Below, in pieces: positions 33,353 through 40,622 of a DNA stretch of 64,000 nt. The notes under the pieces are model-generated. The model made no database searches and had not been told where the DNA came from. It saw nothing but the letters and a program-made list of their open reading frames with translations. Position 1 is the stretch's first letter; each line of letters begins with the position of its first letter. Source of the DNA: Leucobacter sp. UT-8R-CII-1-4 (GTDB taxonomy: Bacteria > Actinomycetota > Actinomycetes > Actinomycetales > Microbacteriaceae). The position numbers and the translations under genes were made by a program. The stretch is from positions 62,001 to 126,000 of the forward strand of contig NZ_JASCRS010000002.1 of NCBI RefSeq assembly GCF_030010235.1, read 5' to 3'.

Positions 33353-33397
33353 AGTTAGCCGCTCAACGAAGCCCGGCCTTGCCACGAGGTGATAATC

Positions 33398-34342
33398 ATG
33401 CAGCACTCGCTCGACGTTGCGCCAAGTGTGACGCACGCTGAAAGTCTTGATTCGTTCAGGTCAGCAGTGAACTCTTCGTTCGTGCCGCTCCAGGTTGAAA
33501 GCGAAGCGGGCGGCCCGTTTCAGGCAACCCTCTCGGCAGCTGGCGCTGACGGCGTGGTGTTCACCGAAGTACGCGCGAAGCCGCAGCTAGTACGACGCAC
33601 CGAAGAGACGATTGAGAGTGGTGGTAGTGGCTACTACAAGGTGAGCCTGCTACTTTCCGGCTCGGGCATCCTGATCCAAGATGGTCGCGAAATCATCATG
33701 AATCCGGGCGATATGTCCTTCTACGACACGTCACGGCCCTACTCGCTACTGTTCAACGAGACCTTTCGAAACCTCATCATGATGTTCCCGAAGGATCGCC
33801 TGGAGTTTCCAACGATCCTCACCGATTCGCTGACCGCTGTCTCCCTCGGTGAACAGCACCACCTTGCAAAGGTGATTGCGCCCTTCATCGCGCAAGCCTC
33901 ACCGCAACTGCCTATGCTGCCCTCGCTCGCAAGAACAAAACTCGCACACACCAGTCTTGATCTCATCAACACCATGCTGTCTGCGATTCTCGACGTCGAA
34001 AACAGCCCCCGCAGCCCACACGAAGTACTGCTGCAAAAGATTTACGGTCACATCAACACAAATCTCGGTTCGCCAACACTCTCACCCGGCAGCATCGCCG
34101 CAGCACACTACATCTCAGTGCGACACCTGCACGCACTGTTTGCCGAACACGACACCACCGTCTCAACCGTCATCAAACAGCGTCGCCTCGAGCACGCACG
34201 GGCAGACCTCACCGACCCAGCATTCTCAACAAAAACCGTGGCAGCCATTGCCGCACGCTGGGGATTCGTTGACGCCGCACACTTTAGCCGGGTCTTCAAA
34301 CAGCACTATGGCGTGTCGCCGAGCGAGCTGCGTGCGCTCTAA
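33398..34342 (+). CDS. AraC-family transcriptional activator (FeaR-like)
   Basis: 314 residues from ATG 33398, which has GAGGTGAT upstream; a GTG three codons earlier lies within that site. The N-terminal half (about 15-185) is the AraC_binding_2-type sensor (YYKVSLLLSGSGILIQDGREIIMNPGDMSFYDTSRPY), and the C-terminal half has two HTH motifs (SPGSIAAAHYISVRHLHALF and TVAAIAARWGFVDAAHFSRVFKQHYGVSPSE). Escherichia coli FeaR, which activates amine oxidase and arylacetaldehyde dehydrogenase, is built this way; the same two enzymes follow here, so an analogous role is likely. Confidence 0.88.
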   Translation: MQHSLDVAPSVTHAESLDSFRSAVNSSFVPLQVESEAGGPFQATLSAAGADGVVFTEVRAKPQLVRRTEETIESGGSGYYKVSLLLSGSGILIQDGREIIMNPGDMSFYDTSRPYSLLFNETFRNLIMMFPKDRLEFPTILTDSLTAVSLGEQHHLAKVIAPFIAQASPQLPMLPSLARTKLAHTSLDLINTMLSAILDVENSPRSPHEVLLQKIYGHINTNLGSPTLSPGSIAAAHYISVRHLHALFAEHDTTVSTVIKQRRLEHARADLTDPAFSTKTVAAIAARWGFVDAAHFSRVFKQHYGVSPSELRAL

Positions 34343-34561
34343 GGCAATTTCGCCCGCACGATAGGCGATCCAACGCCCTGAATCTGCTGCGCCCCAGGCG
34401 CACACTTGTGCGCCAAAACGCGGCAAAACAGGCTCGACCGGGCCGCCAGCGCCCGACCCTTGTCTACGCGTGCACGACCGGTCACGGAATCCCCCGCAGC
34501 GAACCCCGCTCCGAAATACTGGAGTCACTGGCAGCCCCAGTTTCGCTAAGTGAGGAATTCA

Positions 34562-36619
34562 ATGACGCATACTCCCGACACCACGCATACCCGCGGAAAG
34601 CGCGTGAGCACCCCGCTCGAAGCGCAGCATCCGCTCGACCCGCTGAACGCAGGCGAAATCGCAACCGTGCGCAAGACACTCGAGGCCGCCGGCCTGATGA
34701 CCGAGCACGTGCGCATGGCAATGCTGCTCGCGGTCGACCCAAGCAAGGCGACACTTGCCAAATGGAAGCCAGGAAAGGCGTTCGAACGCCGCGCCCTCGC
34801 CACCCTGCTCGATCGCTCAGACGCCACACACACCGAGGTACTGGTATCGATCACCAAGCAGAGCGTTGTATCGCAGAAAGTACTGCCGAACACCCCTGAG
34901 CGTGGCCAAGCCGCCGTGCTCATGGAAGAGTTCTTCGAGGTTGGCGACATCGTCAAGGCAAACCCCGAATGGCGTGCCTCAATGGAACGCCGCGGTTACG
35001 GCGAATACATCGACACCGCGTTCTGCTCACCGCTCGCCCCCGGCTACTTCGAAGAAGAGACCGAAGATGCGGGCCGCCGCTACCTGCGCTCACTCACCTA
35101 CCTGATTCCGAACGAGGGCGACAGCCCGTGGGCCCACCCAGTCGAAGGCCTGATCGTGAAGGTCGACATGACCGAACGCAAGGTGTTCAAGGTCTACGAC
35201 GACCCGAACGCCGCCGCCACCCCAATGGCACACGGCAACTACGACATCGAAACCCAGGGCCCAGCACGCACAAGCCTCAAGCCGATCGACATCACCATGC
35301 CTGAGGGGCCAAGCTTCTCAGTCGACGGCAACAATGTGCAGTGGGAAAACTGGAAGATGCACATCGGCTTCAACTCACGTGAAGGCCTCGTGCTCAACAA
35401 CGTGTCCTGGCGCGATGGCGACGAGGATCGCCCAGTGCTCACCCGCGCCAGCGTGCCAGAGATGGTGGTGCCCTACGGCGATGTTGACGAAACCCGCTAC
35501 TGGGTCAGTTACTTCGACGCTGGCGAATACCTGCTCGGCCGCAACGCAAACCCGCTATCGCTGGGTTGCGATTGCCTCGGCGTGATCCACTACTTCGATG
35601 GATTCGTGAACGACGATCACGGCAACCCGGTCAAGCTCGACCAGGTCATCTGCATGCACGAGGAAGACTACGGCATTCAGTGGAAGCACACCGATCTTGA
35701 CGGAAAACCCGACACCCGTCGAAGCCGCCGCCTCGTGGTGAGCTACTTCGCGACCGTTGGCAACTACGACTACGGATTCTTCTGGTACTTCTACCTCGAT
35801 GGTTCGATCCAGGTCGAAGCCAAGGCAACCGGCGTGGTCTTCGCCGGCTCGGGCATTCCCGGAGCCGCGAACGCGCACAACACTGAGATGGCACCCGGCC
35901 TGCTCGCCCCCGTGCACCAGCACATCTTCTCGGCACGTCTTGACGTTGCCATCGACGGCGAAGACAACACCCTGCACGAAATCGAGGCAGTGCCGATCCC
36001 GCGTGGCCCACTGAACCCACGCGGAAACGCCTTCACCTGGTCAAACACCCAGCTGAAAGACGAGCAATCAGCGCAGCGCATGGCGAACGGGCTTGCCAGC
36101 CGTGTTTGGGAGGTGCGCAGCGCGCATCGCACCAACCACACCGGAAAGCCGACCGCATACTGGCTCATTCCAGAAGGCAAGTCGGTGCTGCTCGCACAGC
36201 CAGATTCATCGGTATACGCCCGCGCGAACTTCGCTACGAAGCACCTCTGGGGTACCCAATACCATGCCGAAGAACTCTACCCAGCAGGCACCTTCCCGAG
36301 CCAAAGCTCGGGCTGGCAGGGGCTCCCAACCTGGACCAAAAAGAATCGCAGCCTCGACGGTGAAGACATCGTGCTCTGGCACCAGTTCGGGCCAACACAC
36401 TTCCCGCGCACCGAAGACTGGCCGGTAATGCCGGTTGACTACTCGGGCTTCTGGTTCAAACCACACGGTTTCCTCGACCACAACCCGACGATGGATCTGC
36501 CCCTCGACGCACGCTCATCATGCGAAATGACCGAATCAGGCTGCTGCTCTAGCGGTGGTTGCGGTTGCTGCGCAGACGACTGCAAGTGCGGTGGCAACCC
36601 CTGCGGCTGCGGCAAGTAA
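34562..36619 (+). CDS. Copper-containing primary amine oxidase with Cys-rich C-terminal tail
   Basis: 685 residues from ATG 34562 (ribosome site GTGAGGAA). Oxidises primary amines to aldehydes with release of ammonia and H2O2. Seen: N-terminal N2/N3 domains, the catalytic base region YFDAGEYLLG, the topaquinone precursor Tyr402 in TVGNYDYG, copper ligands HQH and the third His in FGPTHFPRTEDWPVMP. It is closest in form to Arthrobacter phenylethylamine/histamine oxidases, which end soon after this last motif. Here about 33 extra residues carry ten Cys (CC, CxC, CGCC and CKC type pairs), resembling a metallothionein. No signal peptide is evident, so probably cytoplasmic. Confidence 0.93.
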   Translation: MTHTPDTTHTRGKRVSTPLEAQHPLDPLNAGEIATVRKTLEAAGLMTEHVRMAMLLAVDPSKATLAKWKPGKAFERRALATLLDRSDATHTEVLVSITKQSVVSQKVLPNTPERGQAAVLMEEFFEVGDIVKANPEWRASMERRGYGEYIDTAFCSPLAPGYFEEETEDAGRRYLRSLTYLIPNEGDSPWAHPVEGLIVKVDMTERKVFKVYDDPNAAATPMAHGNYDIETQGPARTSLKPIDITMPEGPSFSVDGNNVQWENWKMHIGFNSREGLVLNNVSWRDGDEDRPVLTRASVPEMVVPYGDVDETRYWVSYFDAGEYLLGRNANPLSLGCDCLGVIHYFDGFVNDDHGNPVKLDQVICMHEEDYGIQWKHTDLDGKPDTRRSRRLVVSYFATVGNYDYGFFWYFYLDGSIQVEAKATGVVFAGSGIPGAANAHNTEMAPGLLAPVHQHIFSARLDVAIDGEDNTLHEIEAVPIPRGPLNPRGNAFTWSNTQLKDEQSAQRMANGLASRVWEVRSAHRTNHTGKPTAYWLIPEGKSVLLAQPDSSVYARANFATKHLWGTQYHAEELYPAGTFPSQSSGWQGLPTWTKKNRSLDGEDIVLWHQFGPTHFPRTEDWPVMPVDYSGFWFKPHGFLDHNPTMDLPLDARSSCEMTESGCCSSGGCGCCADDCKCGGNPCGCGK

Positions 36620-36665: not shown

Positions 36666-38069
36666 ATGTACACCTACGAAACCCTGCTCGCTGCCATCAC
36701 TGTTGAGGGCGGCCGCGAAGTACACAACCCAGCGACCGGCGAACTGATTGGCCGCGTGCCAACACACACCGCTGCCGACGTAGACGCAGCAATCGACCGT
36801 GCCGAAGCCGCTCAGCCTGCCTGGGCTGCCCTCAGCGACGAAGAACGCGTTGGATACATGAACAAGATCGCCGACGCGATTGAGGCAAACGCCGAAGCTC
36901 TCGCCGAGCTGCTCTCGCGTGAGCAGGGCAAACCGCTCAACGGCCCGAACGCTCGCTTCGAGGTCGGCGGCTGTGTTGCGTGGACCCGTGTGCCAGCAGG
37001 CACCCCGCTGCCGGTTGAGGTCGTCGTCGACGATGGCGAGACCTATGCAGAAATGCACTACCGCCCGCTCGGAGTTGTCGGCGCAATCACCCCGTGGAAC
37101 TGGCCGATGATGATCGCCATCTGGCAGATCATTCCATCGTTGCGCATGGGCAACACCGTGGTATCGAAGCCTTCCGAGTACACCACCCTCTCGGGCCTCG
37201 CACTCAACCACATTCTCAACACTGTGCTGCCTGCTGGCGTGCTCGAGACCGTGGCCGGTGCCGGCGACCTTGGCGCGCGCCTCGTCGAAAGCGACAAGAT
37301 CGCAAAGATCATGTTCACCGGTTCGACCCGTACCGGCAAGAAGATCATCGAAGCAAGCTCGGGCAATGTGAAGCGACTCACCCTCGAACTCGGTGGCAAC
37401 GATGCCGGTATCGTGCTCGACGATGTCGATCCGAAGGCAATTGCTGAGGGCCTTTTCTGGGGTGCATTCATCAACACCGGCCAGACCTGCGCGGCGCTCA
37501 AGCGTCTCTACGTGCCAGACTCGATCTACGACGAAGTGGTGAACGAGCTCGCTGCCTTCGCTGCACAGATGCCAATGGGCCAGGGCCTCGACGAGCAGAA
37601 CGTGCTCGGACCGCTGCAGAACGAAATGCAGTTCAATGTGGTGGATCGCCTGGTCGAGTCTGCAAAGGCGTCTGGCGCTCGCGTCGTCATGGGCGGCAAC
37701 CCCGACCGCGATGCAACGGGCTACTTCTACCCAACGACGCTGATCGCGGACATCGATCCAGCGAACGAACTCGTCACCGAAGAGCAGTTCGGCCCAGCTC
37801 TGCCAATTATTCGCTACAGCGATCTCGACGAAGCGATTCGTATGGCAAACGAGCTCGAGGTTGGCCTCGGCGGTTCAGTATGGTCGTCGGATCGCGACCG
37901 CGCTCGCGCAGTCGCAGCTCGTGTGCAGGCCGGCACTGTGTGGATCAACTCACACGGCACCATCAACCCGTTCGTGCCATTTGGTGGCGCGAAGCAGTCG
38001 GGCTATGGTCAGGAGTTCGGCGTCGCCGGTCTCAAGGCCGTCGCACAGCCGCAGGTGATCCAGGGCTAA
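36666..38069 (+). CDS. Aldehyde dehydrogenase for the amine-oxidase product
   Basis: 467 residues from ATG 36666 (AAGGAGAA ribosome site). NAD(P)-dependent ALDH fold: ITPWNWPMMIAIWQI, the FTGSTRTGKKI cofactor loop, the general-base Glu in LELGGNDAG and catalytic Cys275 in NTGQTCAALKR. It begins 46 bases after the amine oxidase and is surely in the same operon. Expected to turn arylacetaldehyde into arylacetate, as FeaB does. Slightly short for ALDH, owing to a trimmed N-terminus. Confidence 0.92.
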   Translation: MYTYETLLAAITVEGGREVHNPATGELIGRVPTHTAADVDAAIDRAEAAQPAWAALSDEERVGYMNKIADAIEANAEALAELLSREQGKPLNGPNARFEVGGCVAWTRVPAGTPLPVEVVVDDGETYAEMHYRPLGVVGAITPWNWPMMIAIWQIIPSLRMGNTVVSKPSEYTTLSGLALNHILNTVLPAGVLETVAGAGDLGARLVESDKIAKIMFTGSTRTGKKIIEASSGNVKRLTLELGGNDAGIVLDDVDPKAIAEGLFWGAFINTGQTCAALKRLYVPDSIYDEVVNELAAFAAQMPMGQGLDEQNVLGPLQNEMQFNVVDRLVESAKASGARVVMGGNPDRDATGYFYPTTLIADIDPANELVTEEQFGPALPIIRYSDLDEAIRMANELEVGLGGSVWSSDRDRARAVAARVQAGTVWINSHGTINPFVPFGGAKQSGYGQEFGVAGLKAVAQPQVIQG

Positions 38070-38267: not shown

Positions 38268-40622
38268 TTACCAGCGCGGCTTACGCTTGCCATCGGCGCG
38301 GTTCGATCCACCGTCGCGACGATCGTAGCCACCGTCACGGCCGCCCCGATCGTTGCGGTCGTAACCACCACGGTCTCCGCCGTAGCCGCCACGGTCACCG
38401 CCACGATCATTGCGACCGTAACCACCGTCACGACCGCCACCGTAGCCACCACGGTCGCCGCCGCGATCGTTGCGGCCATAGCCACCATCACGACCACCGC
38501 GGTCGCCACCGTATCCACCGCGATCTCCACGGTCGCCACGGTCGCGGCCGTAACCACCGCGATCGCCGCCACGATCATTGCGACCGTAACCACCGTCGCG
38601 TCCACCACGGTCGTAGCCTCCACGGTCACCGCCGCGACCGCCGCGATCGCCACCGCGGTCGTAACCGCCCTTTGGTCCACGATCTTCCTTGAGGCCGATC
38701 AGCTGGCCACTGATGCGCACATCAGCAAGGCGTTCCTTAGCTTCAGCGCTCAGGTTCTTTGGCAGCTCGACAAGCGAGAAGTCATCACGAATCTGAATAC
38801 GACCGAAATCGTCACGCGAAAGGCCACCCTCGTTAGCAATTGCGCCAACAATCTGACCCGGCTTCACACGCTGACGGTGGCCCACATCGATGCGGTACAT
38901 CTGCAGGTCGTCGCGACGCTCACGAGGCTCACGGTCTTCGCGATCACGACGCTCGAAACGGTCGCCACGATCACGGCCGCCACGACCGTCTTCGTCGTCC
39001 AGGAAGCGCTTTGCCTGGGCGCGGTCACGAGCAAACTTCTCGTCGTCAGCTTCGTTGAGCAGCAGCGGGGTCTTGCCCTGCGCAACCACAGCAAGCGCCG
39101 AAGCAACATCAGTTTCAGGCACATCATGGTGACGCACATAGTGCGCGATGATGTCGCGGAACGCTTCGATACGGCTCGTCTCATCAAGTGCTGCAGTGAT
39201 CGCATCGTCAAAGCGTGACAGACGTGTCGCGTTCACCTCGGCAACGCCTGGCAGCTGCATCTGAGTGAGTGGCTGCTTGGTGGCCTTCTCAATCGACTTC
39301 AGCATGCGGCGCTCGCGTGGGGTGACGAAGCTGATCGCGTCGCCGGTACGGCCAGCGCGGCCGGTACGGCCAATACGGTGCACGTAGCTTTCGGTGTCGA
39401 TCGGCAGGTCGTAGTTGATGACGTGGCTGATCCGCTCAACATCGAGACCGCGAGCGGCGACGTCGGTTGCTACCAGCACGTCGAGTTTGCCGTCCTTGAG
39501 TGACTGCACGGTGCGTTCACGCACATTCTGCGGAATGTCACCGTTGATGGCTGCTGCCGAGTAGCCGCGGGCACGCAGCTTCTCAGCCACTTGCTCGCTG
39601 TCACCACGGGTACGGGTGAACACGATCAGGCCGTCGAAGTCTTCGACCTCGAGTACGCGGGTGAGCGCATCAAGCTTCTGCATGTACGAGACCACGATGT
39701 AGCGCTGGGTAATGTTTGCGCTGGTCTGGGTCTTGCCTGCGATCTTCACTTCTTGAGGATCGTTCAGGTACTGCTGCGAGATGCGACGGATCTGCGCTGG
39801 CATGGTTGCAGAGAAGAGCGCGACCTGCTTGCTGTCTGGGGTGTCAGCAAGGATTGTCTCTACGTCTTCGGCGAAGCCCATCTTGAGCATCTCGTCGGCC
39901 TCGTCAAGCACGAGGTACTTGATCTGAGTGAGGTCGAGCGAACCACGCTTGAGGTGGTCCATGATGCGGCCTGGCGTGCCGACGACGATATCAACGCCGC
40001 GGCGCAGCGCGCTCAGCTGCTGGCCGTATGCCTGGCCACCGTAGACGGGCAGCAGGTGCACGTTTGGCAGCTGGGTGGCGTAGCTCTCGAATGCTTCGCA
40101 CACCTGGAGCGCGAGCTCACGGGTTGGCGCAAGCACGAGTGCCTGCGGCACTCCCTGGCCTGGCTCGATACGGCTCAGAATCGGCAGCGCGAACGCTGCG
40201 GTCTTGCCGGTACCGGTCTGGGCGAGGCCGACAACGTCGCGGCCCTGCAGCAGCACAGGAATAGTTGCTTCCTGGATTGCCGATGGGGTCTCGTAACCGA
40301 CCTTCTTGATTGCGCTCAGCACGCGCTCGTCAAGGCCGAGCTTATCGAAGCCGTTGCGAGGCGCTTCTTCAGCTGCCGGCTCAGCAGCTTCTTCGGCAGC
40401 TTCTGGGGCCTCTTCTGCAGCGGCAGCGATCTGCTCAGCTGCGGCTTCTGGTTCAGCGGCCGATTCAGTTTCAGCTGCTTCTGGAGTCTTAGTCGTGGTC
40501 GTGGGTTCCGCGTCGCTATCGGTGTGTACCGGCGCCTGCGAAAGCTCCGCTTCCGAAATATCGGAGTGGTTCTGGTCAGCCGCGCGGTCGTCGCCTGCGG
40601 CGGCTTCGTTATTCTGCATCAT
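38268..40622 (-). CDS. DEAD-box RNA helicase with RGG/YGG-rich tail
   Basis: 784 residues. An acidic Glu/Ala-rich N-terminus (about 1-90) precedes the helicase core: Q-motif region ([31 protein letters not shown]), [19 protein letters not shown], and HRIGRTGR. A DbpA-type RNA-binding domain follows (about 555-630, [26 protein letters not shown]), and the last about 145 residues are imperfect repeats of [14 protein letters not shown] type, expected to be disordered and RNA-binding. Resembles CsdA/DeaD and CshA, which unwind structured RNA in the cold and in ribosome assembly. It sits between the amine and hpa genes in the opposite direction. Confidence 0.95.

Follow-up and report, generated by a model that had tools for sequence, protein, structure and literature searches.

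The oxidase locus

The window, which is the whole stretch of 64,000 nucleotides from Leucobacter sp. UT-8R-CII-1-4 that was analysed, contains a copper amine oxidase (CAO) gene that lies between genes for an AraC-type regulator and an aldehyde dehydrogenase (Table 1). A GTG at position 34550 is an alternative start for the oxidase frame, which closes with LPLDARSSCEMTESGCCSSGGCGCCADDCKCGGNPCGCGK and a stop codon. Pfam domain analysis of the oxidase returned AGAO-like_N2 (PF21994), Cu_amine_oxidN3 (PF02728) and Cu_amine_oxid (PF01179), the last with an E value of 1.3e-145. The NCBIfam model PRK11504.1 scored 815.6 bits (cut-off, 651), and the nearest solved relative was the Arthrobacter globiformis phenylethylamine oxidase AGAO (PDB 1av4; E value, 4e-181). 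N401-Y402-D403, H452, H454 and H613 did not vary across a 39-sequence alignment; the tyrosine of the Asn-Tyr-Asp motif is the residue that becomes topaquinone (TPQ), and the His are the copper ligands. The Asn-Tyr-Asp motif of TPQ is given in PMC3382800. Judged by whole-enzyme Pfam and NCBIfam matches above cut-off and by these residues, the protein belongs to the AGAO-type CAO family. No hydrophobic stretch of the kind sought in an exported CAO was seen when the N-terminus (MTHTPDTTHTRGKRVSTPLEAQHPLDPL) was read by eye, and the enzyme apparently is cytosolic.

The aldehyde dehydrogenase would oxidize the aldehyde product of the amine oxidase, and the AraC-type protein is a possible regulator of the pair. 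The window also holds a DEAD-box RNA helicase-like ORF (38268-40622, minus strand) with a long C-terminal tail of Gly/Arg/Asp/Tyr repeat units, as read from its translation.

Table 1. Positions of the features discussed in the text
Feature	Position	Strand	Remarks
AraC-type regulator	33389..34342	+	Pfam AraC_binding_2, HTH_18; upstream of the oxidase
AGAO-type copper amine oxidase (primary-amine oxidase)	34562..36619	+	685 aa
CxC motif in the enzyme domain	35567..35575	+	C336-D-C338 (LGCDCLG)
C364	35651..35653	+	Suggested disulfide partner of C338
C-terminal tail, ten Cys	36515..36616	+	Residues 652-685; C-x6-CC-x4-CGCC-x3-CxC-x4-CxC-GK
Aldehyde dehydrogenase	36666..38069	+	Pfam Aldedh, E 2.1e-143; begins 46 bases downstream of the oxidase
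Genes directly downstream of plasmid AGAO-type CAOs	L283:8016-8732, L284:8015-8878, L285:6982-7704, L286:7049-7699		Caa3_CtaG, DsbD_2, partial PpoB2

A ten-Cys tail outside the enzyme domain

The Pfam enzyme domain stops at residue 644, and the tail (SSCEMTESGCCSSGGCGCCADDCKCGGNPCGCGK) lies outside it. Its Cys are residues 654, 661, 662, 667, 669, 670, 674, 676, 681 and 683 (nucleotides 36521-36610), and the remainder of the protein has four (155, 336, 338 and 364). AlphaFold2 modeled the oxidase with a mean pLDDT of 82.9 and gave values below 50 for residues 646-685, which are predicted to be disordered.

Ten Cys in 30 residues, arranged in CC and CxC groups, is a metallothionein composition. 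Searches with the tail against Pfam, NCBIfam and the PDB returned no match, including to any metallothionein family; the single row from these searches was a glycine-zipper model on a relative's tail, with an E value of 0.12 that is below the cut-off. We thus describe the tail as metallothionein-like in composition alone and do not file it as a metallothionein. In our reading, the long form may be parsed as a CC followed by three x3-4/CxC units, of which Microbacterium tails have one.

Conservation of the tail in Leucobacter and its relatives

Relatives of the oxidase were collected from 54 genomes of the genus (37 matched) and from the best 80 of 557 loci in named genomes. Two of the 110 loci (L028 and L030) were left out for a missing C-terminus, giving 108, and the genus rows consisted of 30 loci and 20 paralogues, with fragments left out. 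Among 28 same-genus orthologues with a readable end, ten Cys were present in 21 and nine in 3, the first Cys alone being missing from the latter. The short-tailed orthologues (L008, L020, L022 and L024) have two or three Cys each, and none of the 28 has four to eight. Long tails, with nine or ten Cys, were present in relatives that are 63 to 92% identical; beyond Leucobacter the long form was found in Kocuria coralli, two Agrococcus assemblies and Agromyces italicus. Near relatives without it include Gulosibacter chungangensis (83 to 84% identical), with SCHC, and L. tardus, with ACC..HH.

Nine core Cys occupy identical alignment positions, with no amino acid change, in 28 distinct tails that were chosen for having at least nine Cys, a choice that in part guarantees the invariance of the Cys. 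It does not guarantee the fixed spacing or the missing intermediates. The pN/pS ratio of the same 28 tails was 0.77 in the spacers and 0.19 in the preceding anchor motif. This combination of kept Cys and drifting spacers is the pattern that ligands on a string would leave.

We also considered where the tail might have come from. That it is a recent frameshift product, which the first-pass annotation had named as grounds for dismissing it, or a result of read-through is excluded by the 24 of 28 same-genus orthologues that carry nine or ten Cys in frame and by eight short-tailed relatives, in which no Cys-rich reading frame is hidden past the stop. A protein search found no second copy of the tail in its own genome, in which a loose DNA pattern of the tail, with two mismatches allowed, matched 22 places, compared with 8 for a control. 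A profile built from 20 long tails gave eight hits in 398 genomes of the family. Five were CAOs, and the three weak ones (L125-L127; E values of 0.0009 to 0.007) fell in frames without a Cys-rich small protein. A stand-alone metallothionein was rejected as the source of the tail, no convincing copy having been found off a CAO in these 398 genomes. Many Leucobacter genomes have a second CAO (L205-L224) that is 35 to 44% identical and often has a shorter tail, such as SCCxGGxCxCEH.

Tail Cys in AGAO-type and exported oxidases

In order to compare the two classes of enzyme, CAOs were collected with the Pfam model from 396 genomes of the phylum (37 matched) and 297 of the order (63 matched). All AGAO-type places (84 from the order and 33 from the phylum, four of them shared) and 21 full-length exported-type places were examined, with partial hits unused. 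Further rows came from the relatives described above, 20 Leucobacter paralogues and 18 of 91 matching plasmid records. L156, which is the window itself, was dropped, and removal of duplicates reduced 279 rows to 257. The label "AGAO-type, leaderless" was assigned by family and by inspection of the N-terminus, with no signal-peptide program, and four rows that passed the hydrophobicity threshold (L147, L166, L232 and L245) were kept as AGAO-type; their open frames probably begin ahead of the true start. L157 and L276 were assigned to the exported class on visual inspection of the N-terminus. The 27 exported rows, which have signal-like N-termini, are 20 fetched actinobacterial sequences, L157 and six proteobacterial sequences, including a TynA.

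Tail Cys was found in 226 of 230 distinct AGAO-type enzymes, and the last 25 residues of the 27 exported enzymes contained no Cys. A doublet (C.?[CH] or H.?C) occurred in the whole tail of 223 of the 230; because whole tails can exceed 25 residues, the corresponding AGAO-type counts for the last 25 are 215 with a doublet and 218 with a Cys. In the part of the sample found with the Pfam model, both Cys and doublet were present in 110 of 112 AGAO-type enzymes, compared with Cys in 0 of 21 exported ones. Plasmid-borne AGAO-type enzymes had a tail Cys in 10 of 12 cases and a doublet in 7 of 12, three of the ten with Cys having no doublet. The control was a set of 281 flanking open frames of at least 250 codons, which are mechanical open frames, not verified genes. 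Of these, 14 have a doublet and 67 have some Cys within the final 25 residues.

The number of Cys per AGAO-type tail (n = 230) was one in 72, two in 51, three in 27, four in 40, five or six in 8, nine or ten in 28 and none in 4. Across 213 AGAO-type proteins, Cys makes up 14.2% of tails and 0.9% of bodies. This is above chance and, together with the recurrence of the tail in relatives, bears out the first-pass observation of a ten-Cys tail past the last oxidase motif; the Cys are in frame and span residues 654-683. His is 2.5-fold enriched in the tails, and Ile, Leu, Val, Phe, Trp and Tyr each account for less than 1% of the tails of these 213 proteins. Typical ends are NGHCHHGG, SHCHG, ACH, ACCH, CCGGGACSCAH and HCPPGQCGCAH. 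The four AGAO-type enzymes without tail Cys are L135 (His only), L249 (His-rich, in a frame that continues to the end of its stretch) and the haloarchaeal L270 and L274. These two differ in this from the enzyme of another haloarchaeon, Natrinema (L269), which has three tail Cys. AGAO-type enzymes were found in several phyla, and proteobacterial and Paenibacillus members also have tail Cys.

The Escherichia coli amine oxidase has only five residues past the aligned end. Six actinobacterial enzymes of a distant exported type (L185-L188, L194 and L200) continue for 183 to 211 residues past the Pfam domain and resemble a cell-surface or membrane anchor in closing with a hydrophobic stretch and a charged terminus; in L185, L194 and L200 this region contains two Cys each, none of them in the last 25 residues. 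On these comparisons of sequence, the Leucobacter tail carries to an extreme a feature that is general among AGAO-type enzymes.

An additional Cys in the enzyme body

The body of the enzyme also differs between the classes. In an alignment of the first 240 distinct rows, on which the body Cys were counted, the C336 position is Cys in 213 of 213 AGAO-type enzymes and in none of 27 exported ones. The C338 and C364 positions are Cys in all 213 and, in each case, in 26 of the 27. The aligned Cys is present in L135 and L270 too, in which the motif is not spelled exactly GCxC. Since C336 is restricted to AGAO-type enzymes in this alignment, this extra body Cys travels with the tail. The Hansenula amine oxidase has a disulfide, Cys338-Cys364, that is said to be conserved (PMC9547800); C338 and C364 of the Leucobacter oxidase stand at these positions and would form the suggested pair.

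In a quick tree of 138 rows, in which long branches were flagged, the exported enzymes all lie on one side of one branch. Because a single branch parts them from the AGAO-type enzymes, compartment and ancestry are confounded, and a repeated evolutionary association of the tail with compartment is not supported, there being one change on the tree. Common ancestry alone could explain the link between tail and compartment. It would explain less well that the tail has been rewritten in length, ligand number and spacing with its soft-metal ligands retained.

Copper supply context

The Leucobacter genome has four HMA matches and no Csp-type (DUF326) or PpoB2 match. Two of the HMA matches are in short, CopZ-like frames (76 and 85 aa), and the other two are in long frames. 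Outside the window, at G000:C5:324518-326999, lies a possible copper cluster, in which a short HMA frame, a match to Caa3_CtaG and a 763-aa frame with an HMA match fall within 2.5 kb. No copper gene was found among 11 scanned ORFs neighboring the CAO in the window. In 48 actinobacterial genomes, compared by eye, no PpoB2 match (present in 8 of 48) or Caa3_CtaG match (42 of 48) adjoins a CAO gene, and these copper genes were likewise rejected as neighbors there.

On four proteobacterial plasmids, which were chosen for copper-related-looking annotation, the gene after the AGAO-type CAO matches Caa3_CtaG in two cases, DsbD_2 in another and PpoB2 in the fourth (Sinorhizobium sp. B11), where the match is partial and covers 53 residues. 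These proteins are possible copper suppliers, to judge from their family matches. Pfam gave no match to the hypothetical proteins encoded downstream of the CAO on two actinobacterial plasmids.

Comparison with known systems

The first-pass annotation had set the Leucobacter oxidase apart from known bacterial amine oxidases, which it held to end without a Cys tail. This was wrong, in that crystallised AGAO (638 aa in PDB 1av4) likewise ends in a Cys/His tail, SQSGSHCHG. AGAO resembles the Leucobacter oxidase in family, domain order, the body CxC and the lack of a visible signal peptide, but its tail has one Cys and two His, compared with ten Cys in Leucobacter. The tail is missing from many PDB chains: the chain sequences of 65 of 106 matched AGAO entries end at residue 628, before it, whether by construct or by deposit, and the oxidase fold thus would not need the tail. 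No function is assigned to it in passages of the review PMC3382800. Among the literature matches listed, which came mostly from outside subscription journals, there was no description of a Cys-rich C-terminal tail on a copper amine oxidase.

Thiol-rich proteins that handle copper offer further comparisons. The metallothioneins SmtA and MymT are short, Cys-rich and free-standing and contain CC and CxC groups. PMC7558416 mentions SmtA as well as a copper metallothionein of mycobacteria. Unlike these, the Leucobacter Cys module is fused to a copper enzyme, and it has no Pfam metallothionein match. CCS, the copper chaperone for SOD1, is a separate eukaryotic protein in which a CxC-bearing domain hands Cu(I) to the enzyme. 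Its thiols are on another protein, whereas those of the Leucobacter oxidase are in cis, and the resemblance would be one of idea only. The cytosolic storage protein Csp3 holds Cu(I) with many thiols and is reported to help load CotA in Bacillus subtilis (PMC9484137). Csp3 proteins are separate, folded four-helix bundles, and the corresponding match is absent from the Leucobacter genome. A dedicated copper supplier for one oxidase is exemplified by PpoB2 (COG5486), which is reported to transfer copper to the tyrosinase of Marinomonas (PMC2855505); in contrast to an in-cis tail, it is a separate membrane protein, with no match in the Leucobacter genome.

Discussion

Bacteria are said hardly to use copper in the cytosol, where this metal, unlike zinc, is scarce. 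An oxidase with an open three-His site in such a compartment would be at risk of taking the wrong metal. The site of apo-AGAO and apo-HPAO is blocked by Zn(II), which Cu(II) does not displace, and Cu(I) supports TPQ formation in HPAO, AGAO being then untested in this respect (PMC3382800). We propose that the disordered, thiol-rich tail is an in-cis Cu(I)-capture device that would feed the active site and guard it against zinc, and we consider the chances that this is right to be evenly balanced. The tail would take Cu(I) in the cytosol, probably from a CopZ-type chaperone, and hold it in a metallothionein-like cluster of its thiols. It would then raise the local copper supply for the three-His site, so that the active-site tyrosine could mature to topaquinone before zinc fills the site. 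In Leucobacter and a few neighbors, the minimal AGAO-type tail, mostly of one to four Cys and in many cases with His, would have grown to a CC and three CxC. We infer the cytosolic location, Cu(I) binding, the source of the copper, its delivery to the active site and the protection from zinc.

Counted in favor of copper loading are the distribution of tail Cys and doublets, the lack of intermediate Cys numbers among same-genus orthologues, the drift of the spacers, the pLDDT values, the CxC Cys, the behavior of AGAO and HPAO toward zinc and copper, the HMA matches, the missing Csp-type match and the plasmid neighbors. Counted against it are the AGAO chain sequences that stop before the tail, the partly built-in invariance of the Cys, the four Cys-less AGAO-type tails, the plasmid-borne tails with Cys and no doublet, the short-tailed near relatives, the single split of the tree, and the lack of a copper gene beside the CAO in the window or beside actinobacterial CAOs. 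Also against it is that TPQ forms in vitro by self-processing when the site is supplied with copper and oxygen, and that the AGAO apo-enzyme, even in the crystal, matures unaided when copper is added (PMC3382800). The in-cis chaperone suggested by the first-pass annotation is partly supported and appears the best fit among the ideas raised there, given soft-metal ligands that are kept, spacers that drift, predicted disorder and an AGAO-type distribution. Taken together, the sequences suggest, but do not prove, that the tail helps the oxidase to obtain copper. A broader proposal, that AGAO-type CAOs are widespread cytosolic cuproenzymes of bacteria and some archaea with their own copper loader (the tail and the body CxC Cys), and that the Leucobacter tail is a fused metallothionein, is made more tentatively, and we rate it at somewhat under an even chance.

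The same thiols might serve the cell and not the enzyme. As a metal buffer, the tail would be a metallothionein riding on an abundant enzyme, one that shields the cell against copper or zinc and supplies nothing to the active site. A stretch of 30 residues with ten Cys that stay in place while the spacers drift does look metallothionein-like, and the genome has no Csp-type match; however, short forms such as HCH, CCH and ACH have too few ligands for a store, with one Cys in 72 of 230 tails and none in 4, and the long-tail profile gave no convincing copy off a CAO in the family genomes. We consider a buffer unlikely. A thiol redox role, in which the tail Cys would form, reduce or shuffle the C338-C364 disulfide in the reducing cytosol or absorb the H2O2 product, would account for the retention of the disulfide Cys in AGAO-type enzymes and the addition of C336, and both H2O2 as the oxidase product and the redox-type CC and CxC motifs fit it. 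But the enrichment of His and the many one-Cys tails with His neighbors suit metal better than thiol exchange, and 26 of 27 exported CAOs keep both disulfide Cys without a Cys tail, so that to us this role is about as improbable as a buffer.

Fixed Cys spacing within the Leucobacter long form could point instead to a structural zinc knuckle, an iron-sulfur site or a protein-docking handle, the first two of which had also been raised in the first pass. Ligand number and spacing, which range over HCH, CCH, CxCxH and ten Cys, change among lineages, however, and the tail is predicted to be disordered without metal and has no convincing match in Pfam, NCBIfam or the PDB; such a role has, in our estimate, a slim chance. 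Freely varying spacers and the short tails of some near relatives are what a functionless, neutral low-complexity Gly/Cys extension would give. That reading is already disfavored by the conservation of Cys, which is present in 226 of 230 tails and numbers nine or ten in 24 of 28 same-genus orthologues and four to eight in none, and we regard it as very improbable.

Of these several ideas, then, copper loading seems the best, with the contrast to known enzymes corrected. If the tail loads copper, it would offer a small part that can be taken away in order to study how an enzyme in the bacterial cytosol acquires copper and not zinc. Work with recombinant AGAO-type enzymes would be affected as well, given the 65 of 106 matched AGAO entries without the tail in the chain sequence. 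If the tail is idle, one would still have to explain why its Cys have been kept across phyla. If a class of self-loading cytosolic oxidases does exist, copper use in the bacterial cytosol would be common, with selectivity over zinc built into the enzyme.
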